Positions 3,891 to 34,977 of a stretch of 59,983 nucleotides of DNA are shown here, in pieces. The position numbers and the translations under genes were made by a program. This stretch comes from Actinomycetes bacterium (lineage in GTDB: Bacteria; Actinomycetota; Actinomycetes; Nanopelagicales; Nanopelagicaceae), in contig JANYCW010000048.1 of NCBI GenBank assembly GCA_025360085.1, positions 1 through 59,983 on the forward strand, read 5' to 3'. The stretch's first letter is position 1. Every line of letters starts with the position of its first letter. The notes beneath the pieces are model-generated. The model saw only the letters and a list, made by a program, of their open reading frames with translations. It was not told where the DNA came from and ran no database searches.

Positions 3891-3920
3891 TTGCCATCTG
3901 TCAGCCCAAGGGGCTATTTT
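3891..3920 (+). promoter_or_regulatory. Candidate promoter of the SOS mutagenesis operon
   Basis: TTGCCA (3891-3896), an 18-base spacer and TATTTT (3915-3920) make a plausible sigma-70-type promoter. The predicted start near 3927 falls inside the LexA palindrome, so repressor binding would block initiation directly. Confidence 0.5.
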
Positions 3921-3921
3921 T
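3903..3921 (+). terminator. Possible short terminator after the MFS gene
   Basis: AGCCC (3903-3907) pairs with GGGCT (3911-3915) across a three-base loop, followed by ATTTTT. The stem is only five pairs, so strength is doubtful. Its T run overlaps the -10 and LexA box of the next operon. Confidence 0.35.
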
Positions 3922-3939
3922 CGAACACCTGTTCGAAAA
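3918..3939 (+). promoter_or_regulatory. LexA (SOS) box
   Basis: The core CGAACacctGTTCG (3922-3935) exactly fits the CGAAC-N4-GTTCG operator bound by LexA in Actinobacteria and Firmicutes. The palindrome extends to nine perfect pairs per arm (3918-3926 with 3931-3939). It lies about 30 bases before the first gene of the DUF6504-dnaE2-dinB operon, as expected for DNA-damage induction. Confidence 0.9.
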
Positions 3940-3968
3940 TCCACAGCCCCAAGGAGCACCCCTTACCC

Positions 3969-4244
3969 ATGCCAGAGATTAAACCCGCCCACGATGTCAC
4001 CATCGATGGCGCAATGACCCCTATTGAATTTACTTTTAAAGGCAGACGTTTTCGTATTCATGCCGTTTTATCTAGGTGGTGTGAGGCAGGGGGTTGGTGG
4101 AATCGTATTAGCGATGGAAAGTATCGCCCCGATGATGCCGCCCGTGCAGTGTGGCGCGTTGAGGCCGCCCCGATTGGAGCGGTAACAACTTTTGAACTCG
4201 AACGTGATGAACTCAGCGGGCAATGGATTATTAGATCGATATGA
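3969..4244 (+). CDS. DUF6504-type small protein, SOS cassette
   Basis: A 91-residue soluble protein resembling the DUF6504 family, whose members occur beside Y-family polymerase and dnaE2 genes in actinobacteria. Seen here: an N-terminal segment PIEFTFKGRRFRI, then RWCEAGGWW, then VWRVEAAP and a final ELSGQWIIRSI, a small beta-rich domain full of aromatic residues. The start is ATG 3969, with AAGGAG at 3951-3956 about 12 bases upstream. An in-frame start at 3834 is rejected because it would read through the LexA operator. The stop overlaps the dnaE2 start by four bases. It is the first gene after the SOS box, so it should be co-induced with the two polymerases. The biochemical role is unknown; the family name is from memory of the pattern. 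Confidence 0.75.
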   Translation: MPEIKPAHDVTIDGAMTPIEFTFKGRRFRIHAVLSRWCEAGGWWNRISDGKYRPDDAARAVWRVEAAPIGAVTTFELERDELSGQWIIRSI

Positions 4245-7200
4245 GCTTTATTCATCTCAATGTTGCAAGTGCCTACTCACTTAAATATGGCACGACACAG
4301 CCCCATGATTTGGTTGCGCGCGCAGCGCAGTTTGAAATGCCAGCTCTGGCGCTCACCGATCGAGATGGTTTAGCTGGCGCGGTTCGCTTTGCCCAAAGCT
4401 GTGTTGAGTATGGCATTGCACCAATTATCGGAGTCAATCTAGGTATTGATATGGGCAAGATAAAGGGTCGCATCACGTTACTGGCCCATAGCGATGGTGG
4501 GTGGCGCGCGTTGTGTAGATTGTTAACTTCACTCACAATGGTTTCCGATAACCGTAACCCAATTCTGAATCTAGAGTTCTTACAGCGCTTTAGCCATTAC
4601 AGTTCAAATCTCTACGCTCTCCATGGCCCCGAATCACCCGTTGGCGCATTGCTCACCGATAACCGTATCGATGCCGCCTTTGCTGCATTCAATACAACGC
4701 GCGATTTATTTGCTAGCAATGCAATCGAATGTGTTTCCCATCTAGTTGCTGGTAAAGGCCCTCGGTCTACATCACACGCTGCGAGGTCGCTGATTTTTGC
4801 CCGTGACCATGACATTGATGCAGTTTTTACAAACGCTGTTCGCATGCGCGATCGCAGCGATGGGCCGGTGGGCGATGTCTTAGATTGCGCACGTCAGTTA
4901 GTTCCATTGCATCCTCGCCATGTCGAGCGTCGCAACGCTGAAGGTTTTTTAAAATCCGCTGATGAGATGAGTTTATTAGCTGGTGAAATTGCGCGCGCAG
5001 CCGGAGAGCGCACACCGCGCCAACTTCTTGCAACAACCAGAGCGTGGGCCGAACGCTCTTTATTATCATCTGCACGCGATATTGGACTTGGGGGCGCGTA
5101 TCTACCCGAACCTCATGTTGTTGGTGCGCAGTCGGCGCATGAGATGCGAATGCTTTTGCGTGCTCGTAGCGAGGCCGGTATTAACCGGCGCTATAGCGAT
5201 AGTGGTGCGATTAAGCGTGCGCGTGCGCGCCTTGATGACGAACTATCAACGGTTGCAACGCTCGGTTTTGAATCCTATTTTCTAACTGTCGCCGATATCT
5301 GCGACATGGCACGCAACGCCGGTATACGCGTGGCCGCACGTGGCAGTGGTGCGGGCTCACTGATCTGTCACTTACTTGCAATCTCTGGAGTCGAACCGAT
5401 GGCTCACGGACTATTAATGGAGCGTTTTTGTTCACCGCTTCGCCGAGCCTTACCTGATATCGATATCGACGTTGAATCACACCGTCGCCTTGAAATCTAT
5501 GACATGATTTTTAAACGCTACGGCGATACCGGTTGGGATACCCCTAACAATCAGTCGCGTTGTGCAACTGTTGCAATGGTCGATACATATCGCGCCAGAC
5601 ATGCCATACGCGATGCCGGTGCGGCCCTTGGTCTGCCTGCGATGGAGATTGACCTATTAGCTAAATCAATGCCCCATGTTCGTGCGCGCAATATATCCAG
5701 TGCTCTAAAAAACCTACCCGAACTCAAATCTCTCAATATATCTGCCCCTTTAACGGCGATGACAATCGCCCTTGCCGAGCGTTTAGATGGCCTGCCTCGT
5801 CATTTAGCGATGCATCCATGCGCCATAGTTTTATCTGATGGTGGTTTATTAGATCGCACACCGTTGATGGCCAGTGCTAGTGGGTATCCCATGGTGGTCT
5901 TTGATAAAGATGATGTCGAGGCGATTGGTCTTTTAAAGCTCGATGTCTTAGGTGTGCGTATGCAGTCGGCGATTTCATATGCGCTTACTGAAATCGAACG
6001 TGTGCACGATACAAAGATTGATATCGATGCCGTACCTCTAGATGATGATCAGACCTATCAACTCATTCAATCAACGCGCACTCTCGGAATCTTCCAAATC
6101 GAAAGCCCGGGCCAGCGCGAACTTGTTGGCAAACTCCAACCTAAAACATTTACCGATTTAATTATCGATATCTCACTCTTTCGTCCAGGACCCGTTAAGG
6201 GCGACATGATTTCGCCCTTTTTAAAGGCGCGTCACGGGTGGAGCAGACCGAAGGTTATTCACCCCGACCTCTACGAAATTTTGCGCGATACGCAAGGCGT
6301 TGTTGTCTTTCACGAACAAGTAATCCATATCATCGCTGCGATGACAGGCGCTTCTCTGGCAAGTGCCGATGAAAAGCGCCGTGCATTAGGGGATAAGGCG
6401 GGTGCACAAGAGGTCTGTGACTGGTTTTTTCCTACCGCACTATCGCGTGGATACGAGTTGCCCATCGTTAATGAAATTTGGGAACTTTTGCGCGCTTTTG
6501 CCTCCTTTGGTTTTTGCAAGGCGCATGCCGCCGCTTTTGCAATGCCGACATATCAATCGGCTTGGTTAAAGACGCATTACCCTGCAGCTTTTTTGGCGGG
6601 GGTTCTTACGCACGAGCCAGGCATGTACCCCAAACGTTTAATCGTCGATGAGGCACGACAGATGTCAATCACTATTGCCCCGCTAGATATTAATGAATCG
6701 GATTCGCTCTATCGTGTTGAGGAAGCGGGCACTGCGATTCGCATTGCGCTATCGACTATTTCACAGATTAGTGATGGAGAGATCGCATCAATCATTGCTG
6801 GTCGCCCATATACCGATTTAGCAGACTTTGTGCATCGCTCCGGTAGTAGTGCGCCGGTTACAGAAAGTGCAATCCTTACCGGCGCCTTTGATCGTTTGCA
6901 TAGTGATGTCAATCGTCGAGATCTCTTACTGCATCTATCTGACTTGCAACGCTCGCCGAATAAAACTATCTCTGGTGCGCAGATGAATTTAGCTTTTGCT
7001 CCCCCTGCCCTGATTACTAGCGGGCTTCCCGATATGAGCCCTGCCGAAAGTGTGCGCCACGAAGTCGAACGTTTAGGCATCGACATGTCTCACCATGTAA
7101 TCGAGTTCTATGGTGGATTTCTTAATGCCATCGGCGCAGTGCGTTCATCGCAGTTACTAGAGGCACGCTCGCGCTCTAGCGTTCTTGTCGCAGGTATTAA

Positions 7201-7468
7201 AGTTGCGATGCAGACTCCACCAGTGCGTTCAGGTAAACGCGTCATTTTCTTAACTCTCGATGATGGCTATGGCTGCAGCGATTCGACATTTTTTAGCGAT
7301 GCGCAAAGCCACTACGCCAGCACCCTGTATTCATCATCCCTGCTACTGGTTCGAGGCATTACCCGTCGTACGGGTGCGCGTGGGATTTCAATTAATGCCA
7401 CGGGAGCCTGGGATTTACGTGTGGCATATGAAAATTGGCGGGCGAAAGAAAGTACGCTGGCAATATGA
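4241..7468 (+). CDS. dnaE2: Error-prone DNA polymerase III alpha, DnaE2/ImuC type
   Basis: A 1075-residue C-family polymerase, the normal DnaE2 length and about 90 residues shorter than the replicative DnaE1 at 31480. The N-terminal PHP domain begins HLNVASAYS and has TDRDG, so metal-binding histidines found in active PHP sites (HxH and TDH) are replaced; proofreading there is unlikely. The palm carries PDIDID near residues 405-410 and the third carboxylate in KLDVLG, so polymerisation should work. A helix-hairpin-helix region and a C-terminal OB-like domain (VLVAGIKVA, then VIFLTLDDG) complete the fold. In mycobacteria DnaE2 performs mutagenic translesion synthesis with an ImuB partner. Here it overlaps DUF6504 and dinB by four bases each and follows the LexA box, so it is probably induced by DNA damage. 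Confidence 0.9.
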   Translation: MSFIHLNVASAYSLKYGTTQPHDLVARAAQFEMPALALTDRDGLAGAVRFAQSCVEYGIAPIIGVNLGIDMGKIKGRITLLAHSDGGWRALCRLLTSLTMVSDNRNPILNLEFLQRFSHYSSNLYALHGPESPVGALLTDNRIDAAFAAFNTTRDLFASNAIECVSHLVAGKGPRSTSHAARSLIFARDHDIDAVFTNAVRMRDRSDGPVGDVLDCARQLVPLHPRHVERRNAEGFLKSADEMSLLAGEIARAAGERTPRQLLATTRAWAERSLLSSARDIGLGGAYLPEPHVVGAQSAHEMRMLLRARSEAGINRRYSDSGAIKRARARLDDELSTVATLGFESYFLTVADICDMARNAGIRVAARGSGAGSLICHLLAISGVEPMAHGLLMERFCSPLRRALPDIDIDVESHRRLEIYDMIFKRYGDTGWDTPNNQSRCATVAMVDTYRARHAIRDAGAALGLPAMEIDLLAKSMPHVRARNISSALKNLPELKSLNISAPLTAMTIALAERLDGLPRHLAMHPCAIVLSDGGLLDRTPLMASASGYPMVVFDKDDVEAIGLLKLDVLGVRMQSAISYALTEIERVHDTKIDIDAVPLDDDQTYQLIQSTRTLGIFQIESPGQRELVGKLQPKTFTDLIIDISLFRPGPVKGDMISPFLKARHGWSRPKVIHPDLYEILRDTQGVVVFHEQVIHIIAAMTGASLASADEKRRALGDKAGAQEVCDWFFPTALSRGYELPIVNEIWELLRAFASFGFCKAHAAAFAMPTYQSAWLKTHYPAAFLAGVLTHEPGMYPKRLIVDEARQMSITIAPLDINESDSLYRVEEAGTAIRIALSTISQISDGEIASIIAGRPYTDLADFVHRSGSSAPVTESAILTGAFDRLHSDVNRRDLLLHLSDLQRSPNKTISGAQMNLAFAPPALITSGLPDMSPAESVRHEVERLGIDMSHHVIEFYGGFLNAIGAVRSSQLLEARSRSSVLVAGIKVAMQTPPVRSGKRVIFLTLDDGYGCSDSTFFSDAQSHYASTLYSSSLLLVRGITRRTGARGISINATGAWDLRVAYENWRAKESTLAI

Positions 7469-8637
7469 GTTCGGCCTCGATACTTCACGTTGATATGGAT
7501 GCATTCTTTGCATCCGTTGCCGAGCACGATAACCCAGAGTTAAAGGGCAAGGCCGTTGTCATTGGAATGGGCGCTCGCGGGGTCGTTTCGGCGGCCAACT
7601 ATGAGGCGCGCAAATTTGGAATCCATTCTGCAATGCCAGTAAGTCGGGCTAGGCGATTAGCGCCACACGCGATTTTTCTACCTGTCGATATGCCACGCTA
7701 TCAAGAGGTCTCATCGCACGTCATGGAGATCTTTGAAAGTTTTACGCCATGGATTGAACCCATCTCATTAGATGAAGCATTTTTAGATGTTAGCGGTGTG
7801 CAGCGATTGATAGGTTCACCGAGAGAAATAGCGATAAAGATTCGCGCAAAGGTCGAGGCACAAGAGGGCATCACGTGTTCAGTCGGTATTGCACCATCAA
7901 AGTTCATTGCAAAACTAGCATCAGAAGCGTGCAAACCCAATGGGATGCTAGAAATTACGGCCGATCGCATACTTACCTTCTTGCACCCTCTGCCGATTCA
8001 AGCGATGTGGGGAGTAGGACCAAAGACGGCGCAAACTCTAGAGCGCTTAGGCCTTCGTACTATTGAAGACATTGCTCATTTGCCACCTGCAACATTGATC
8101 CGCGCATTAGGGCAGGCAAATGGCGCATCCTTATATGAGCTGGCATGGGGCCGTGATTATCGAGACGTAACACCACACGATGCGGAAAAAAGTATTAGCG
8201 CTGCCGAAACTTTTGCCCAAGATTTAGATAATCCGAGCGAGATTTTGACTGAATTTTTACGCTTAACCGAGCGAGTATCGGCAAGGCTTCGCGATAAGGA
8301 TTTATTCTCTAAGACCATTTCAATCAAGGTGCGCTTTGCCGATTTTTCTACTCTCAATAGATCTAAAACTTTGGCTCTTCCCATAGATGGAACCCATGAA
8401 ATCTATGAAGTTGTAAAAAAGCTTTACCTGGCTTTGCATGTAGATCGTGCCCGCATGCGATTAGTAGGGGTTTCTTTAGAGAATTTAAGTACGGGGGCTC
8501 CCGAACAGATGATCTTGGGGGAGCGAGAGAGTGGTTGGCGTCAGGCCGATGGCGCAATAGATCGTGCCAGAGCGCGTTTTGGTGCAGGAAGCGTGCGCCC
8601 TGCCCGATTAATTAAACCTGGCAAAGAGGATGGATGA
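7465..8637 (+). CDS. dinB: DNA polymerase IV (Y family)
   Basis: A 390-residue Y-family translesion polymerase. Catalytic motifs are intact: HVDMDAFFASV at the N-terminus supplies the first aspartate, and SLDEAFLDV supplies the Asp-Glu pair. The palm-fingers segment is followed by the helix-hairpin-helix region (WGVGPKTAQTLERLG) and a little-finger domain. The start is ATG 7465, which overlaps the dnaE2 stop as ATGA; an upstream TTG would give an unconserved extension. Intact catalytic residues separate it from ImuB, the inactive Y-family scaffold usually paired with DnaE2. No beta-clamp motif is obvious at the C-terminus, which ends in a basic tail. As third gene of the LexA-controlled operon it may act alone or take the ImuB role. 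Confidence 0.92.
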   Translation: MSSASILHVDMDAFFASVAEHDNPELKGKAVVIGMGARGVVSAANYEARKFGIHSAMPVSRARRLAPHAIFLPVDMPRYQEVSSHVMEIFESFTPWIEPISLDEAFLDVSGVQRLIGSPREIAIKIRAKVEAQEGITCSVGIAPSKFIAKLASEACKPNGMLEITADRILTFLHPLPIQAMWGVGPKTAQTLERLGLRTIEDIAHLPPATLIRALGQANGASLYELAWGRDYRDVTPHDAEKSISAAETFAQDLDNPSEILTEFLRLTERVSARLRDKDLFSKTISIKVRFADFSTLNRSKTLALPIDGTHEIYEVVKKLYLALHVDRARMRLVGVSLENLSTGAPEQMILGERESGWRQADGAIDRARARFGAGSVRPARLIKPGKEDG

Positions 8638-8688: not shown

Positions 8689-9036
8689 ATGGCTCTATCC
8701 GATCATGAGAAGCGAATGCTCCAGGAGATGGAGGCAGCGCTTCTAACCGAGGATCCGAAACTGTTCTCGGCCCTGTCTGGAGATGCCAAACTTCCGCGCG
8801 GAAATCGCGTTGTTGTTGGTTTAGGCCTTATTCTCCTTGGGGTCGCAACCCTGTTTGGGGGTCTGATCGCAAAGATAACTCCGGTAGGCGTTCTTGGCTT
8901 TGTCATCGCATTGGTGGGAGTTATTGCGATTCTCTCCTCCTTAACCAGCCAAGCTCCACGAGTAAAGGGGGCTCGCAAAGGCTCAGCGCTGGGATCGCGC
9001 TTAGAAGAGCGTTGGGATGAGCGCAACAACCAATAA
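8689..9036 (+). CDS. DUF3040 membrane protein
   Basis: A 115-residue protein of the actinobacterial DUF3040 family. The N-terminus MALSDHEKRMLQEMEAAL is the family signature, followed by a short DPKLFSAL segment. Two membrane helices lie near residues 43-62 and 66-87, and the tail is basic and rich in Arg and Gly. Such a gene usually sits just upstream of mraZ, as here. The function is unknown; position suggests a link to the cell envelope. A terminator follows, and a -10 hexamer six bases before the ATG suggests an independent leaderless transcript. Confidence 0.85.
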   Translation: MALSDHEKRMLQEMEAALLTEDPKLFSALSGDAKLPRGNRVVVGLGLILLGVATLFGGLIAKITPVGVLGFVIALVGVIAILSSLTSQAPRVKGARKGSALGSRLEERWDERNNQ

Positions 9037-9061
9037 ATTTTAAAGTTTTTCAAGAAAAATC

Positions 9062-9086
9062 GGTCCCCTTGAGGGGCCATTTTTTA
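9062..9086 (+). terminator. Rho-independent terminator before mraZ
   Basis: GG-t-CCCC (9062-9068) pairs with GGGGCC (9073-9078) around a TTGA loop, with one bulged T, followed by ATTTTTTA. It separates the DUF3040/SOS side from the division cluster. Confidence 0.7.
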
Positions 9087-9134
9087 TCCCCTGACAGTGG
9101 GGCCACGTGGAGGAAAAATCCATATTTATGACAG

Positions 9135-9171
9135 AAAGTGGTGTAAAAAGGAGGAAAATGGAGTAAAGTGG
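9135..9171 (+). promoter_or_regulatory. MraZ operator: four boxes with a 10-bp period
   Basis: AAAGTGG (9135), AAAAAGG (9145), AAAATGG (9155) and AAAGTGG (9165) are spaced exactly ten bases apart, putting them on one face of the helix. Known MraZ operators are tandem TGGG/AAAGTGG-type boxes with this period upstream of the mra operon. The last box ends 57 bases before the mraZ start. Autorepression of mraZ and the downstream cluster is the likely purpose. Confidence 0.75.
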
Positions 9172-9227
9172 GGAAATAAGCCGATGTCACACTCGGTGAG
9201 CGAACCTGGGGAAGGGGGCGCAGAGAA

Positions 9228-9659
9228 ATGTTTCTTGGCACCTATGAACCCCGTCTTGATGAAAAGGGCCGCCTTATTATGCCGGCGAAATTTCGCGAAG
9301 AGTTAGCTTCAGGTCTGGTGGTGACAAAAGGTCAAGAGCGTTGTCTTTATGTATTTCCTTCCATTGAATTTGAAACGATAACCCAGACATTAAAACAGGC
9401 ACCCGTAACTGCAAAAGCGGCACGTGATTACAGCCGTGTGATGTTTGCAGGTGCCCATGACGAAATTCCTGATCGACAGGGGCGCATAACAATTCCACAA
9501 AACCTTCGGACCTATGCCGGTCTTGAAAAAGATTGTGTCGTGATTGGAGCAAATACACGTGTGGAAATTTGGGATGCAACTTCATGGAATGAATATTTGA
9601 CTGATCGCGAAAAAAGTTTTGCTGATGTGTCAGAGGAGGTTTTTCCTGGCCTGTTCTAA
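9228..9659 (+). CDS. mraZ: MraZ transcriptional regulator
   Basis: A 143-residue protein with two AbrB-like (SpoVT-type) swapped-hairpin domains. The first starts [24 protein letters not shown] and the second contains [17 protein letters not shown]; the paired DxKGR/DRQGR loops are the MraZ signature. MraZ forms rings that bind tandem repeats in front of its own operon, and a four-box array lies just upstream. A GGGG-type ribosome binding site precedes the ATG. It is the first gene of the division and cell wall cluster and is separated from rsmH by a 179-base spacer containing a long inverted repeat. Confidence 0.95.
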
Positions 9660-9665
9660 CTAACT

Positions 9666-9763
9666 CTCATCTGTGGCCACCGCCGACCTTTCGAACCTAT
9701 CGGCATCCCTTCCCCGGCGCCGATATTAAATTGATCCGTCGGCCGGCGGTGACCAGAGATGAG
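9666..9763 (+). ncRNA. Structured RNA candidate in the mraZ-rsmH spacer
   Basis: An imperfect inverted repeat with 20 of 23 positions pairing (9666-9688 with 9741-9763) encloses a perfect seven-pair hairpin (TATCGGC 9698-9704 with GCCGATA 9719-9725). No T run follows, so it is not a simple terminator. A cis-regulatory mraW RNA motif has been described upstream of mraW (rsmH) in actinobacteria; this may be that element or a relative. I cannot check the consensus here. Confidence 0.55.
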
Positions 9764-9838
9764 AATTTAAGAAATATGCACTTTAGTAAGAAAGAAATTA
9801 ATTACTGAGCAAGATTAATTTGAGGAATAGGGGGAGAT

Positions 9839-10792
9839 ATGATTGATAAAAATGTGCATGTATCAGTAATGCAAAATCGATGTATTGAACTCCTCTCTAG
9901 CGTTGTTGATATAAGCTCAAATCCAGTCATTGTCGATGCAACACTTGGTCTGGGTGGACATGCGAAACTCTTATTAGAAAAATTTCCAACTCTTCAGGTT
10001 GTAGGTATAGATCGCGACGCCACTGCACTCGAAATAGCAAGTCGAAGACTTGCCTTATTTGCGAATCGATTTCATGCAACTCATACAACCTTTGACAAAA
10101 TTGAAGAGGTAGTTAATTCCTTTGGGTATAGTAAAATATCGGGGGCGATTTTTGATCTTGGCGTTTCTTCGATGCAATTAGATGAAACAAATCGTGGCTT
10201 CTCATACTCCCAAGATGCACCTCTAGACATGCGCATGGATCGCACTCAATCCCTGACTGCTGCAGAAATTGTAAATACTTACGAACCCGGTCAACTAGTT
10301 CGAATTTTGCGTAAATACGGTGAAGAAAAATTTGCCACGCGCGTAGTCGAATCGATTGTCAAGGCACGAGCAAAAGCACCGCTTAACTCAACTGCACAGT
10401 TAGCGTTGCTCGTAAAAAATGCGATTCCAGCAGCTACAAGGAGAACTGGAGGAAACCCCGCAAAACGCACATTTCAAGCGCTTCGCATTGAAACCAATGA
10501 CGAACTTGGCACCATCACTCGAGCACTTCCTGCGGCACTAAATCTTCTGCATGTTGGTGGCCGCCTCATTGTTATGTCATTTCAATCACTCGAAGATCGA
10601 ATTGTAAAAGAGCTTTTTGTGGCGGCAACAACATCAAAAACACCAAGAGAGCTTCCAATTGAACTCCCAGAGCTTTCTGCCAAGTTTTCCTTAGTGATTC
10701 GTGGAAGTGAAAAAGCTAGCGCACAAGAAGTTGATGAAAACTCGCGGTCAGCGTCAGTACGACTTCGTGCGATTGAAAGGGTGGCTGCTTAA
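9839..10792 (+). CDS. rsmH: 16S rRNA m4C1402 methyltransferase RsmH
   Basis: A 317-residue S-adenosylmethionine-dependent methyltransferase (MraW) that modifies N4 of C1402 in 16S rRNA. HVSVM near the N-terminus and the SAM-binding DATLGLGGHAKLLLE are typical, as is FDLGVSSMQLDE. The substrate region RTGGNPAKRTFQALRIETNDE and the motif MSFQSLEDRIVK are intact. GGGGGAG precedes the ATG. The stop overlaps the ftsL start (TAATG). The stem-loop in the upstream spacer may control its expression. Confidence 0.96.
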   Translation: MIDKNVHVSVMQNRCIELLSSVVDISSNPVIVDATLGLGGHAKLLLEKFPTLQVVGIDRDATALEIASRRLALFANRFHATHTTFDKIEEVVNSFGYSKISGAIFDLGVSSMQLDETNRGFSYSQDAPLDMRMDRTQSLTAAEIVNTYEPGQLVRILRKYGEEKFATRVVESIVKARAKAPLNSTAQLALLVKNAIPAATRRTGGNPAKRTFQALRIETNDELGTITRALPAALNLLHVGGRLIVMSFQSLEDRIVKELFVAATTSKTPRELPIELPELSAKFSLVIRGSEKASAQEVDENSRSASVRLRAIERVAA

Positions 10793-31460: not shown

Positions 31461-31479
31461 GTATTACTCTTCATAAGCT

Positions 31480-34400
31480 ATGTCAACTGATAACTTCGTT
31501 CACCTTCACGTACACACCGAGTACTCAATGCTTGACGGAGCAGCACGGGTTGGCGAACTAATGGATGAAGTTACACGCCAAGGCATGCCAGCAATTGCAA
31601 TGACTGACCATGGAAATGTTTTCGGAGCTTATGATTTTTATAAGAATGCTAAAAAATCCGGAGTCAAGCCCATTATTGGAATTGAAGCCTATGTTGCTCC
31701 TGAATCTCGCTTTGATAAAAAGCGCGTGAAATGGGCCGATGGTGGTCAAGATGATGTTTCAGGCGGCGGTGCCTACACCCATATGACGATTCTGGCTGAA
31801 AATAATATTGGTTTAGGAAATCTATTTCGTCTCTCATCATTAGCTTCTCTCGAAGGTTATTACTACAAACCCCGCATGGACCGGGAAATTTTATCCACAT
31901 ACGCAAGTGGACTCATCGCTACAACGGGATGCCCGGGAGGTGAAATTCAAACTCGACTTCGGATGGGCGCGTATAAAGAAGCCATAAGGGCGGCGAGTGA
32001 TTACCGCGATATTTTTGGGTCAGGCAATTACTTTGTCGAGATTATGGATCATGGAATCGAAATTGAGTCTCGAGTAAAGTCTGATCTCTTAAAACTGGCA
32101 AGAGAATTGAATATACCTTTACTTGCAACAAACGATCTGCACTACACATTGCAAATTGATGCACCAGCACACGAGGCCTTATTGTGCGTTCAATCAGGAT
32201 CTACTTTGGCTGATCCAAAACGATTCAAATTTGAAAACGATAGTTTTTACGTGAAAACATCGGCGCAGATGCGGGAGCTCTTCAAAGAAATCCCTGAAAG
32301 TTGCGACAACACTGTGCTTATTGCCGAGCGTTGTAACGTCACCCTGAGAGAAGGCGAAAATCTACTTCCACAGTTTGCTGTGCCTAGTGGTGAAACCGAA
32401 GATTCGTGGCTGGCAAAAGAGGCCGAAAGTGGCTTAATACATCGTATGGGTACACGCGTAACACCTGAACACTCTGCCCGCCTTGCTTATGAGTTGGCGA
32501 CCATGAAAGCGATGGGATTTCCCGGCTACTTCTTAGTTGTTGCAGATTTAGTTGCGCATGCAAAGAGTGTAGGAATCCGAGTCGGACCAGGCCGTGGTTC
32601 GGCAGCTGGATCATTAGTTGCCTATGCACTTGGTATCACAGGCCTTGATCCGCTTGAGCACGGACTTTTATTCGAGAGGTTTTTAAATCCAGAGCGTATC
32701 TCTATGCCTGATATTGATCTGGATTTCGATGAGCGTCGGCGAAGTGAAATGATTCGTTATGCAACAACGAAATATGGTGAAGATCGAGTTGCGCAAATTA
32801 TTACTTACGGCACAATTAAATCTAAACAAGCACTTAAAGACTCTACGCGAGTACTTGGCTATCCATATGTTGTTGGAGAAAAGCTGACGAAGGCTTTGCC
32901 TCCCTCGGTGATGGGCAAGGATATTTCTCTCGGCGGTGTATTTAACTCTAAAGATGATCGCTACGGCGAGGCAGGTGAATTTCGTGCGTTGTACGAGTCA
33001 GATCCAGATTCAAAGCGAGTAGTCGACACTGCTCGGGGGCTTGAGGGTTTAAAACGCCAGTGGGGAGTCCATGCAGCGGGTGTAATTCTCTCACGTGAGC
33101 CTTTGTTAGATGTGATTCCAATTCATCGCCGAGAGGCCGACGGCGCAATCATCACTCAGTTCGATATGGGTGCATGCGAGGCAATCGGGCTATTGAAAAT
33201 GGATTTTCTCGGTTTGCGAAATCTTTCTGTACTCGATGATGCCTTGCTCAATATTAAATCTAATCAAGGCAAAGACGTTGTATTAGAGGATTTAACCCTT
33301 GATGATAAGAAAACATATGAGTTACTCTCTCGCGGGGACACGCTCGGAGTTTTTCAACTAGATGGTGGGCCTATGCGGGCACTTCTTCGTGCCATGTCAC
33401 CGGATTCATTTCAGGATATCTCGGCTGTCATCGCCTTGTACCGCCCCGGTCCAATGGGCGAAAATGCGCACAACAACTATGCAGACCGTAAAAATGGACG
33501 TAAACCAGTTGAGGCAATCCATCCAGAACTCGTCGATGCTCTGCAGGAAATTCTGGGCGATACCTATGGGTTAATTGTTTACCAAGAGCAGGTGATGGCG
33601 ATTGCCCAAAAAGTCGCTGATTTCTCGCTCGGACGCGCGGATCTACTTCGCAAAGCGATGGGTAAGAAGGATAAAAATATTCTTGATAAAGAGTACATAC
33701 CATTCGAAGCTGGCATGAAGAGCAATGGCTATTCAACTGGCGCGATTAAACGTTTATGGGATGTCCTCATTCCCTTTTCAGATTATGCTTTCAATCGCGC
33801 ACATTCTGCGGGCTACGGAGTTGTTTCGTACTGGACAGGATATTTGAAAGCTAATTATCCAACAGAATACATGGCCGCACTTTTGACTAGTGTTCGAGAT
33901 GATAAAGATAAATCAGCTCTTTACTTAAGTGAGTGTCGCCGAATGGGAATCAAAGTTCTTGAGCCGGATATTAACGAATCTGATGCCGAATATACGCCGA
34001 TAGGAAACGATATTCGCTTTGGTTTGGCGGCGATTCGAAATGTTGGCGAAGGCGTTGTCGCTTCAATTAAAGCCACACGCGAATCAAAAGGCCGATTTAC
34101 GTCATTTGGTGATTTTTTAGTAAAAGTCGATGCACAAGTGTGCAATAAAAAGACAATGGAATCACTTATCAAAGCCGGAGCTTTTGGTTCTATGGGCGTT
34201 ACTCGAAAGGGGTTGATGGCAATCTATCTTGAGGCCATCGACTCGGTAATTGAAACTAAGCGTGCAGAGGCCATTGGCCAGTTTGATTTATTTGGAGGTG
34301 AATCAATGAGCCAAGTGGTTTCTTTAGATTTAGAAATCCCGACTGGTGAATGGGACAAGTCGATGTTGCTCAGCTATGAGCGAGAGATGCTTGGACTCTA

Positions 34401-34977
34401 TGTATCCGACCACCCACTATTAGGGATTGAGCATGTTTTGAGAGCACATACCGAGATGACCATCAGTGAACTTGCCGACGATGGAGCTCGAAATGAAGCC
34501 ATTGTCACGATCGGCGGATTGATTACGGGCGTTACACGCAAAGTTTCTAGGCAAGGAGCTACATGGGCAGTTGTTACAGTGGAAGATCTTGAAGGTTCTC
34601 TGGAAGTTCTCTTCTTCTCAAACACATACAACCAATACTCGATGGCACTTACTGAAGATCGCATAGTCACGATACGAGGGAGAGTCGATAGGCGCGAAGA
34701 TACGTTGCGCTTTACCGCCTTGGAAATGTCAATGCCTGATATTTCAATGGGGCCTTCTGGCCCGCTAGTGATATCTCTGCCAATGTCTCAATGCACGCCA
34801 CCAATTGTCGAGCGTATTAAGGAGATTTTACGTTCGCACCCGGGCAAACGCGAAGTAAATCTTCATATTCTGGACAATGGAGTAACAACTTCAATGAAAA
34901 TTGATGCTCAGATTACTAATTCACCTAGTTTGAGCGCAGATTTAAAATCGATATTAGGCCCGAACTGCCTGCTCTAA
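31480..34977 (+). CDS. dnaE: DNA polymerase III alpha subunit, replicative DnaE1
   Basis: A 1165-residue C-family polymerase. The N-terminal PHP domain keeps its metal-binding signature (HLHVHTEYS and MTDHGN), so, as known for mycobacterial DnaE1, it probably proofreads. The palm has PDIDLDFDERRR and KMDFLGLR with the three catalytic aspartates. AYNRAHSAGY-type residues (FNRAHSAGYGVVSY) mark the conserved finger/thumb region. A clamp-binding-like QFDLF occurs near residue 935, followed by an OB domain. Length and intact PHP set it apart from the DnaE2 copy at 4241. Nineteen bases separate it from the preceding gene; no clear ribosome binding site is visible. Confidence 0.95.
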   Translation: MSTDNFVHLHVHTEYSMLDGAARVGELMDEVTRQGMPAIAMTDHGNVFGAYDFYKNAKKSGVKPIIGIEAYVAPESRFDKKRVKWADGGQDDVSGGGAYTHMTILAENNIGLGNLFRLSSLASLEGYYYKPRMDREILSTYASGLIATTGCPGGEIQTRLRMGAYKEAIRAASDYRDIFGSGNYFVEIMDHGIEIESRVKSDLLKLARELNIPLLATNDLHYTLQIDAPAHEALLCVQSGSTLADPKRFKFENDSFYVKTSAQMRELFKEIPESCDNTVLIAERCNVTLREGENLLPQFAVPSGETEDSWLAKEAESGLIHRMGTRVTPEHSARLAYELATMKAMGFPGYFLVVADLVAHAKSVGIRVGPGRGSAAGSLVAYALGITGLDPLEHGLLFERFLNPERISMPDIDLDFDERRRSEMIRYATTKYGEDRVAQIITYGTIKSKQALKDSTRVLGYPYVVGEKLTKALPPSVMGKDISLGGVFNSKDDRYGEAGEFRALYESDPDSKRVVDTARGLEGLKRQWGVHAAGVILSREPLLDVIPIHRREADGAIITQFDMGACEAIGLLKMDFLGLRNLSVLDDALLNIKSNQGKDVVLEDLTLDDKKTYELLSRGDTLGVFQLDGGPMRALLRAMSPDSFQDISAVIALYRPGPMGENAHNNYADRKNGRKPVEAIHPELVDALQEILGDTYGLIVYQEQVMAIAQKVADFSLGRADLLRKAMGKKDKNILDKEYIPFEAGMKSNGYSTGAIKRLWDVLIPFSDYAFNRAHSAGYGVVSYWTGYLKANYPTEYMAALLTSVRDDKDKSALYLSECRRMGIKVLEPDINESDAEYTPIGNDIRFGLAAIRNVGEGVVASIKATRESKGRFTSFGDFLVKVDAQVCNKKTMESLIKAGAFGSMGVTRKGLMAIYLEAIDSVIETKRAEAIGQFDLFGGESMSQVVSLDLEIPTGEWDKSMLLSYEREMLGLYVSDHPLLGIEHVLRAHTEMTISELADDGARNEAIVTIGGLITGVTRKVSRQGATWAVVTVEDLEGSLEVLFFSNTYNQYSMALTEDRIVTIRGRVDRREDTLRFTALEMSMPDISMGPSGPLVISLPMSQCTPPIVERIKEILRSHPGKREVNLHILDNGVTTSMKIDAQITNSPSLSADLKSILGPNCLL

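Follow-up and report, generated by a model that had tools for sequence, protein, structure and literature searches.

We examined a three-gene operon near the start of a 59,983-nucleotide stretch of DNA (hereafter the window) from an Actinomycetes bacterium of the family Nanopelagicaceae (assembly GCA_025360085.1, contig JANYCW010000048.1, positions 1 to 59,983). Downstream of a perfect LexA-type box, and all on the plus strand, lie the genes for a small protein of the DUF6504 family, a DnaE2-type error-prone polymerase and a DinB-type polymerase of the Y family (Table 1). An earlier interpretation made from the letters of this stretch, referred to below as the sequence-only reading, had described three overlapping genes; indeed, both junctions are ATGA overlaps of four bases and no more, at 4241-4244 between the DUF6504 gene and dnaE2 and at 7465-7468 between dnaE2 and dinB, the latter provided that dinB starts at the ATG at 7465, which suggests that the three genes are probably translationally coupled. 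Behind dinB follow a DUF3040 gene and frames read as mraZ and rsmH (8689-10792), that is, the start of the division-gene (dcw) cluster.

Table 1. Features of the operon in the window, with examples of the HEPN gene found at related loci
Feature	Position	Strand	Remarks
LexA (SOS) box	3918-3939		10-base arms, 2-base centre; core 3922-3935
AAGGAG, possible ribosome binding site for DUF6504	3951-3956	+	by reading the sequence
DUF6504 protein, 91 amino acids, read as a standalone ImuB C-terminal (ImuB-C) domain	3969-4244	+	PF20114, 4.2e-10
DnaE2-type error-prone C-family polymerase, 1075 amino acids	4241-7468	+	family match and tree; PDIDID and KLD carboxylates present
DinB (polymerase IV), 390 amino acids from ATG 7465 (TTG 7435 also possible)	7465-8637	+	IMS, 7.8e-52
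HVDMD catalytic motif of DinB	7486-7500	+	sequence
SLDE catalytic motif of DinB	7765-7776	+	sequence
QMILGE in DinB, with conserved Q..Lg; candidate motif for binding the beta clamp	8506-8523	+	alignment conservation
AIDRARARFGAGSV, putative RecA-N-terminal-like motif in the DinB tail	8554-8595	+	hidden Markov model of DinB tails
HEPN_SAV_6107 gene, examples (loci L179-L221)	L201:5512-5955; L185:5526-5993; L208:1658-2299

The DUF6504 protein matches Pfam PF20114 with 40.2 bits (cut-off 24.2), and a search of NCBIfam assigned it to no family. DinB matches the Pfam family IMS with 175.6 bits and scores above the cut-off of the NCBIfam DNA polymerase IV model PRK03858. Compared with six near relatives, all three genes are under purifying selection, with ratios of nonsynonymous to synonymous change (pN/pS) of 0.10-0.19, uncorrected for saturation.

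LexA box and SOS control

The box consists of two perfect arms around its centre (TTTTCGAACA-CC-TGTTCGAAAA), which confirms the CGAAC-N4-GTTCG site within a 22-base palindrome noticed in the sequence-only reading. Its core, CGAACACCTGTTCG, was equalled in none of 100 shuffles of the 600-base upstream region. Across the 1.63-Mb genome the pattern CGAAC-N4-GTTCG occurs at five sites, compared with two for a reversed-pattern control, and the same core is common to three of them (one read on the other strand), namely those of this operon, of recA (box at C17:45681, RecA domain at C17:45917) and of the only LexA gene in the genome (box at C55:22818, LexA domain at C55:22949), in whose region a second box with one mismatch is also found. 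The two remaining sites lie inside coding sequences read as leuA and nuoG, names given by reading the sequence without a family search. Furthermore, among 50 regions upstream of DUF6504 genes, that of the window being one of them, 48 have a perfect core and the other two a core with one mismatch. With the SOS box 5' of the operon and the same core at recA and lexA, control of the operon by LexA, as had been proposed, is probable. The further claim, which placed the box on the transcription start, was not confirmed: one promoter-like match (3891-3920) reaches into the box, and the scan that produced it performed at chance level (four matches, 6.8 expected). In Streptomyces venezuelae, LexA binds upstream of dnaE2, and mitomycin C induces dnaE2 and dinP (PMC9380542).

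In the same genome, lexA shares its two boxes (1501-1514, perfect, and 1562-1575, with one mismatch, in L026:1067-2243 of contig C55) with a divergently oriented frame of 159 amino acids. This frame has a marginal match to LysM (20.3 bits, cut-off 20.9) and is a candidate for an SOS-induced division inhibitor.

Phylogenetic position of DnaE2

The name DnaE2 rests on a phylogenetic tree, the NCBIfam error-prone polymerase model having scored 633.9 on the window protein, below its cut-off of 939. In a tree of 25 rows, nine of which were flagged for unusual composition, the window DnaE2 falls within a group of 20 (support 100/100) whose members come from loci with no imuA or imuB beside them and include the DnaE2 proteins of a Streptomyces plasmid and an Arthrobacter plasmid as well as loci from titled genomes. 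Four ImuA-linked DnaE2 proteins, from Kitasatospora, Burkholderia, Bosea and Neorhizobium, form a separate clade (100/100). The conserved alignment columns include the PDIDID and KLD motifs, which we take to hold the catalytic residues. The split in this tree, which was built from our own set of sequences, matches the DnaE2B and DnaE2A classes of PMC12926913. The possibility that the window gene is the replicative dnaE was rejected, as a second DnaE is encoded in the window (open frame 31477-34974).

Identity of the DUF6504 protein

The PF20114 model matches residues 429-503 of a Bosea plasmid protein (26.0 bits, above the cut-off of 24.2), which is encoded directly before dnaE2 and has IMS and IMS_C matches as well, and residues 370-443 of an annotated ImuB of Neorhizobium (22.6 bits, just below the cut-off). 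With two ImuB proteins of proteobacteria thus matched at their C-termini by PF20114, DUF6504 is best read as the ImuB-C domain encoded as a separate gene. Not every ImuB is reached by the model, however, as the presumed actinobacterial ImuB of Kitasatospora remained unmatched by PF20114 at E <= 0.1. The DUF6504 proteins of an Arthrobacter plasmid and of Nonomuraea, each adjoining dnaE2, are likewise members of PF20114. Equating DUF6504 with the ImuB-C of Aravind and colleagues (PMC3765255) and of Timinskas and Venclovas (PMC6511836) is a step taken in our reading of the sequences; a literature search that covered few subscription journals returned no paper for the name DUF6504.

A mediocre AlphaFold2 model of the protein (mean predicted local distance difference test score, pLDDT, 72.8) is mostly beta. 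A fold match as a basis for its identity was rejected, the search of the PDB with this model having returned no match at E <= 0.001, which is in line with the new fold reported for ImuB-C (PMC12926913).

Two plasmid records bear on the family and its naming. On the conjugative Arthrobacter plasmid pA48BH1, a weak DUF6504-like gene (L138:658-951; tblastn E 7e-3, PF20114 15.7 bits, below the cut-off) is followed by 5 kb of displayed sequence in which no dnaE2 is annotated. On the Bosea plasmid pANAM02, the ImuB-type protein (L139:1481-3004) is recorded as 'DUF6504 family protein' after its C-terminal domain, a manner of naming that can hide imuB genes.

Search for imuA and imuB

The genome of the window is 99.36% complete and has one IMS gene, one PF20114 match and two DnaE genes. 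The absence of imuA noted in the sequence-only reading was supported by a profile search, in which the sole match in this genome was recA (25.7 bits); a hidden ImuA elsewhere in the genome was accordingly rejected. The profile was built from four genes, two annotated as imuA and two, from Bosea and Kitasatospora, taken by their position before an imuB-type gene; the presumed Kitasatospora ImuA matches no Pfam family. On two source records the profile scored 247.5 and 364.5 bits, both controls being members of the profile. RecA-family matches in the genome comprise one above the cut-off and a second of only 15.6 bits. In the other 35 genomes of the order that were searched, the profile gave single weak matches of at most 30.2 bits, not checked singly, in frames of 358-543 amino acids that would fit RecA.

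Similarly, no imuB was found in this genome, its only Y-family gene having intact motifs and no PF20114 match. The IMS model recovers the presumed ImuB of Kitasatospora with 46 bits, and the IMS search would therefore be expected to reveal an ImuB of this sort. Genuine imuA and imuB genes elsewhere in the genome were thus looked for and not found.

DinB and its tail

The Y-family protein is catalytically intact, as had been claimed: the HVDMD and SLDE motifs are both present in all 55 aligned DinB proteins, that of the window included. The tail is also strongly conserved, with a W, an A-x-D and an RFG-x-GS-V element, and further upstream lies a conserved Q..Lg, a candidate beta-clamp-binding motif. 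A hidden Markov model (HMM) of 53 distinct DinB tails ranks the RecA of the same genome first; this RecA scores 6.6 bits, the highest score among 2000 shuffled versions of it being 5.9, and the aligned segment is QFGKGSV, close to its N-terminus. An ungapped matrix of 30 columns found the same place in RecA without significance, 853 of 5000 shuffles being at least as good; the HMM did slightly better. Outside the order, a simple pattern of the tail motif matches 24 of 28 DinB proteins, and one of the four that it misses is truncated at a contig end. These comparisons provide modest evidence that the DinB tail resembles the N-terminal motif of RecA, the RecA-NT motif described in PMC6511836.

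Because of this resemblance, RecA is a likelier stand-in for ImuA than DUF6504. The sequence-only reading had proposed that genome streamlining reduced the mutasome and that the small protein replaces ImuA as its adaptor. No imuA was found and the operon begins with the gene for a small protein, as that proposal would have it, but DUF6504 is homologous to the C-terminus of an ImuB, its model is mostly beta, unlike the RecA-like ImuA, and the layout occurs in many other actinobacteria (see below); we regard the proposal in this form as very improbable.

Distribution in Nanopelagicales

The order Nanopelagicales, which we take to be the freshwater actinobacteria commonly named acI, was sampled with 121 genomes, the window's included. 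DUF6504 was found in 108 of them, a Y-family gene in 114, at least one DnaE finger domain in 118 and LexA in 109. In 96 of the 121, DUF6504 and dinB share a contig and a direction, their domain matches lying 3.2-5.0 kb apart, a count that leaves out a second, sub-cut-off Y-family match in one genome (G072). Sixty regions were fetched, 43 from these 96 genomes and 17 from exceptions, and the gene order DUF6504-dnaE2-dinB-DUF3040 was seen in all 43. In one of them (G037), two genes are inserted after DUF6504; this insert (L065:1046-2405) is an AbiEi/AbiEii toxin-antitoxin pair that splits the compact operon. The 25 genomes that do not fit are partly explained by assembly breaks, and some of them are informative, as discussed below. 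Among the best 80 of 532 loci in a scan of titled genomes, the window DnaE2 is up to 90% identical to those of actinobacterial metagenome-assembled genomes, 73% to that of Candidatus Planktophila and 57-64% to those of Candidatus Nanopelagicaceae.

Distribution outside the order and the HEPN gene

In a sample of 197 genomes of the phylum (the window's and 196 others), DUF6504 is present in 71, the window's included. For the counts below, each genome contributed a single DUF6504 match, a second match in G135 being below the cut-off, and genomes with more than one DnaE match contributed only their weaker, DnaE2-like rows. Among the 70 besides the window's, DUF6504 stands directly before a DnaE finger domain in 37, of which 23 have a Y-family gene close behind, so that DUF6504-dnaE2-dinB also occurs in genomes of the phylum outside the class of the window; in the other 14 no gene of the dinB type follows closely on the same strand, in some of them perhaps because the contig ends. 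DUF6504 accompanies a Y-family gene with no dnaE2 near in 11 genomes, and the remaining 22 belong to none of these classes.

The best 80 loci of the scan of titled genomes were divided by identity into 40 from the order and 40 from outside it, an approximate split, as four of the latter are titled Nanopelagicales. Within these outside-order loci, 20 have the box, DUF6504, a HEPN gene, dnaE2 and dinB; 10 have the same series with no dinB in reach; 5 have the box, HEPN gene, dnaE2 and dinB without DUF6504; and 5 have other arrangements, one being a contig that starts inside dnaE2. The complete series is found in Humibacillus, Janibacter, Terrabacter, Streptacidiphilus, Quadrisphaera, Propioniciclava and Micropruina, among other taxa, the last two being presumably relatives of Tessaracoccus, and isolates are among the outside-order actinobacteria with the layout. 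The view of the operon as an economical form of a streamlined genome is not supported by this distribution: a layout common in other actinobacteria, in isolates and beyond the class of the window, is not explained by streamlining.

The HEPN gene, of the family HEPN_SAV_6107 (PF18726), was found by HMM in 35 of these 40 loci, where it precedes dnaE2 and follows DUF6504 or the box, and the assignment was confirmed in Pfam for all five proteins checked. PF18726 had no match in the 121 genomes of the order. SAV_6107 has been listed, with no context given, as a HEPN family of actinobacteria (PMC3710099), and the literature search described above, with the same limits, returned no paper with both HEPN and DnaE2. 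The protein is a candidate for a further subunit or regulator of the mutasome.

A DUF6504-dnaE pair was also observed on the conjugative Arthrobacter plasmid pYA7-1a (L135:2707-6996), where it is followed by a convergent gene for an SOS response-associated peptidase and travels with no dinB beside it.

Comparison with known mutasomes

The sequence-only reading implied that a reduced mutasome of this kind was new. Earlier work had dealt with ImuB-C (PMC6511836, 2019; PMC3765255, 2013), and PMC12926913 (2026) has since predicted a type made of DnaE2B, an apparently active PolY, a standalone ImuB-C and RecA, with Tessaracoccus lapidicaptus as exemplar. According to that paper, this type and the DnaE2-[ImuB-C] type are restricted to Actinobacteria, AlphaFold supports all 11 types described there, and the authors describe the four-part type as predicted and not yet characterised. 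The window shares with it a DnaE2 outside the ImuA-linked clade, an active-looking Y-family polymerase, a standalone ImuB-C, provisionally a RecA-like tail, no imuA or imuB found, and actinobacterial relatives; it differs in that no genome of its order (0 of 121) has the HEPN gene, whereas Propioniciclava and Micropruina have one. Judged by its sequence features, and for the RecA motif provisionally, the operon fits this already published DnaE2-[ImuB-C]-PolY-RecA type, and the implied novelty of the mutasome is not supported. New here are the distribution in the order, the uncoupling of dinB from the LexA-controlled pair in some of its genomes, and the HEPN neighbour elsewhere. The main text of PMC12926913 does not contain the words Nanopelagic, Planktophila or LexA, and the same literature search returned no paper on Nanopelagic with DnaE2 and only unrelated papers for acI or Planktophila with SOS.

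Other systems share fewer traits. The DnaE2-[ImuB-C] pair of the Arthrobacter alpinus type (PMC12926913) is the pair seen on pYA7-1a and in two genomes of the order (G008 and G011), whereas the window has dinB directly after dnaE2. The dnaE2-dinP operon of Streptomyces (PMC9380542, PMC6511836) has in common with the window DnaE2, a Y-family gene and a LexA box, and the DnaE2 of a Streptomyces plasmid groups with that of the window in the tree; in Streptomyces coelicolor, in contrast, DinB2 is inactive and ImuB-C is missing (PMC6511836). The lexA-imuY-imuB-C-dnaE2 operon of Deinococcus (PMC8072749) shares the standalone ImuB-C beside dnaE2, LexA control and the lack of imuA, but its ImuY is predicted to be inactive and its lexA lies inside the operon. 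With the ImuA-ImuB-DnaE2 mutasome the window shares DnaE2, the ImuB-C domain and, as predicted for the window, control by DNA damage, and it differs in having no imuA or ImuB found, intact Y-family motifs and a DnaE2 of another clade.

A proposed mechanism and its alternatives

We consider it reasonably likely that the operon encodes a LexA-repressed translesion system of the DnaE2-[ImuB-C]-PolY-RecA type, with DUF6504 acting on DnaE2 and DinB acting on RecA and the clamp. DNA damage would lead to RecA-stimulated self-cleavage of LexA and free the box, and the products of the three genes would then be made together. DUF6504, as ImuB-C, would bind the PHP domain of DnaE2 as an adaptor, by analogy with published models of ImuA-ImuB-DnaE2. 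In DinB, the tail motif would make the contact with RecA and Q..Lg that with the beta clamp. DinB would thus take the place of ImuB, and DinB together with RecA that of ImuA. The active-site motifs of DinB and DnaE2 are intact, and the two polymerases would divide between them the insertion opposite lesions and the extension beyond. We infer LexA binding, induction, the contacts with RecA and the clamp, the single complex and the division of labour; the explanation draws on the box shared with recA and lexA, the conservation of the layout, purifying selection, the homology of DUF6504 to ImuB-C and the failure to find imuA or imuB. The earlier proposal that an active Pol IV replaces ImuB in a mutasome stands in part: an intact DinB does occupy the place of ImuB in a recurring unit, while DUF6504 as a substitute for ImuA and the appeal to streamlining are not supported.

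Several observations speak against this explanation. To the modest margin of the RecA-like motif, the non-significant matrix and the lack of a PDB match for DUF6504 must be added the exceptions within the order. In genus g3 (10 genomes, of which G120 has the intact layout), G008 and G011 are each assembled as a single contig, on which DUF6504-dnaE2, preceded by a perfect box, lies at a distance from dinB; their dinB stays before DUF3040-mraZ-rsmH and shows no box, the best site in the 470 bases examined having at least three mismatches. Four more g3 genomes have DUF6504-dnaE2 and dinB on different contigs. G019 (single contig, 99% complete) retains dinB and LexA and lacks DUF6504, with a single DnaE; the same holds for DnaE and DUF6504 in G043 and in G117, the latter 84% complete and with no LexA match. 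In the DNA fetched 5' of dinB in G117 and G043 there is no dnaE2, that of G043 holding other open frames. Finally, none of the four genomes of genus g5 has a DUF6504 match; dnaE2-dinB remains there, with a perfect box directly before it in both regions with enough upstream sequence. The DUF6504-dnaE2 pair can thus stand alone under its own box and dinB can be separated from it, so that a single obligate complex need not apply to the whole order.

These exceptions lend weight to a different explanation, in which one transcript carries two separate SOS tools, an autonomous DUF6504-DnaE2 pair and an ordinary DinB anchored to the dcw cluster, with no shared complex. dinB looks anchored to that cluster, because DUF3040 follows it in all 43 three-gene regions and also in four genomes with no dnaE2 upstream of dinB (G008, G011, G019 and G117). 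In G008 and G011 the pair has its box at a place away from dinB, it occurs with no dinB alongside on the conjugative plasmid pYA7-1a and with none close behind in the 14 phylum genomes mentioned above, and DnaE2-[ImuB-C] is listed as a type of its own (PMC12926913). Set against this are the ATGA overlap of dnaE2 and dinB in the window, the co-directional adjacency in 96 of the 121 order genomes and its recurrence in 23 of the 70 outside, the conserved tail motif of DinB, the published models of the four-part complex (PMC12926913), and G043, in which the 1.9 kb fetched 3' of dinB has no DUF3040 match. On balance two independent tools seem possible but rather unlikely.

The role of DUF6504 may also be conceived otherwise, chiefly as a recruiter of polymerases that binds damaged DNA rather than as an adaptor of DnaE2, a role once proposed for ImuB-C (PMC3765255) and compatible with the four-part system favoured here. 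Its predicted, mostly beta structure and its presence beside a Y-family gene with no dnaE2 near in 11 of the 70 genomes would suit such a function, whereas later models place ImuB-C on the PHP domain of DnaE2 (PMC12926913), and DUF6504 and dnaE2 remain together where dinB is elsewhere; we hold it to be improbable as the chief role.

Tentatively, and with considerable doubt, the LexA-controlled DUF6504-DnaE2 pair may be regarded as an autonomous core of SOS mutagenesis in many actinobacteria, to which DinB and RecA would add a detachable second active polymerase that passes lesions on to the pair. The HEPN_SAV_6107 protein, a further subunit of the common actinobacterial version in this view, would have been lost in this order, whose genomes would display a stepwise dismantling through the uncoupling of dinB, the loss of DUF6504 and the loss of the pair.

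Our results place a predicted, uncharacterised type of mutasome in an actinobacterial order of small genomes, probably the freshwater acI lineage, together with a probable LexA switch. Genomes in which dinB has been uncoupled, DUF6504 lost or the whole pair lost constitute natural experiments, so that the indispensable parts of DnaE2 mutasomes become testable by comparison within this order.

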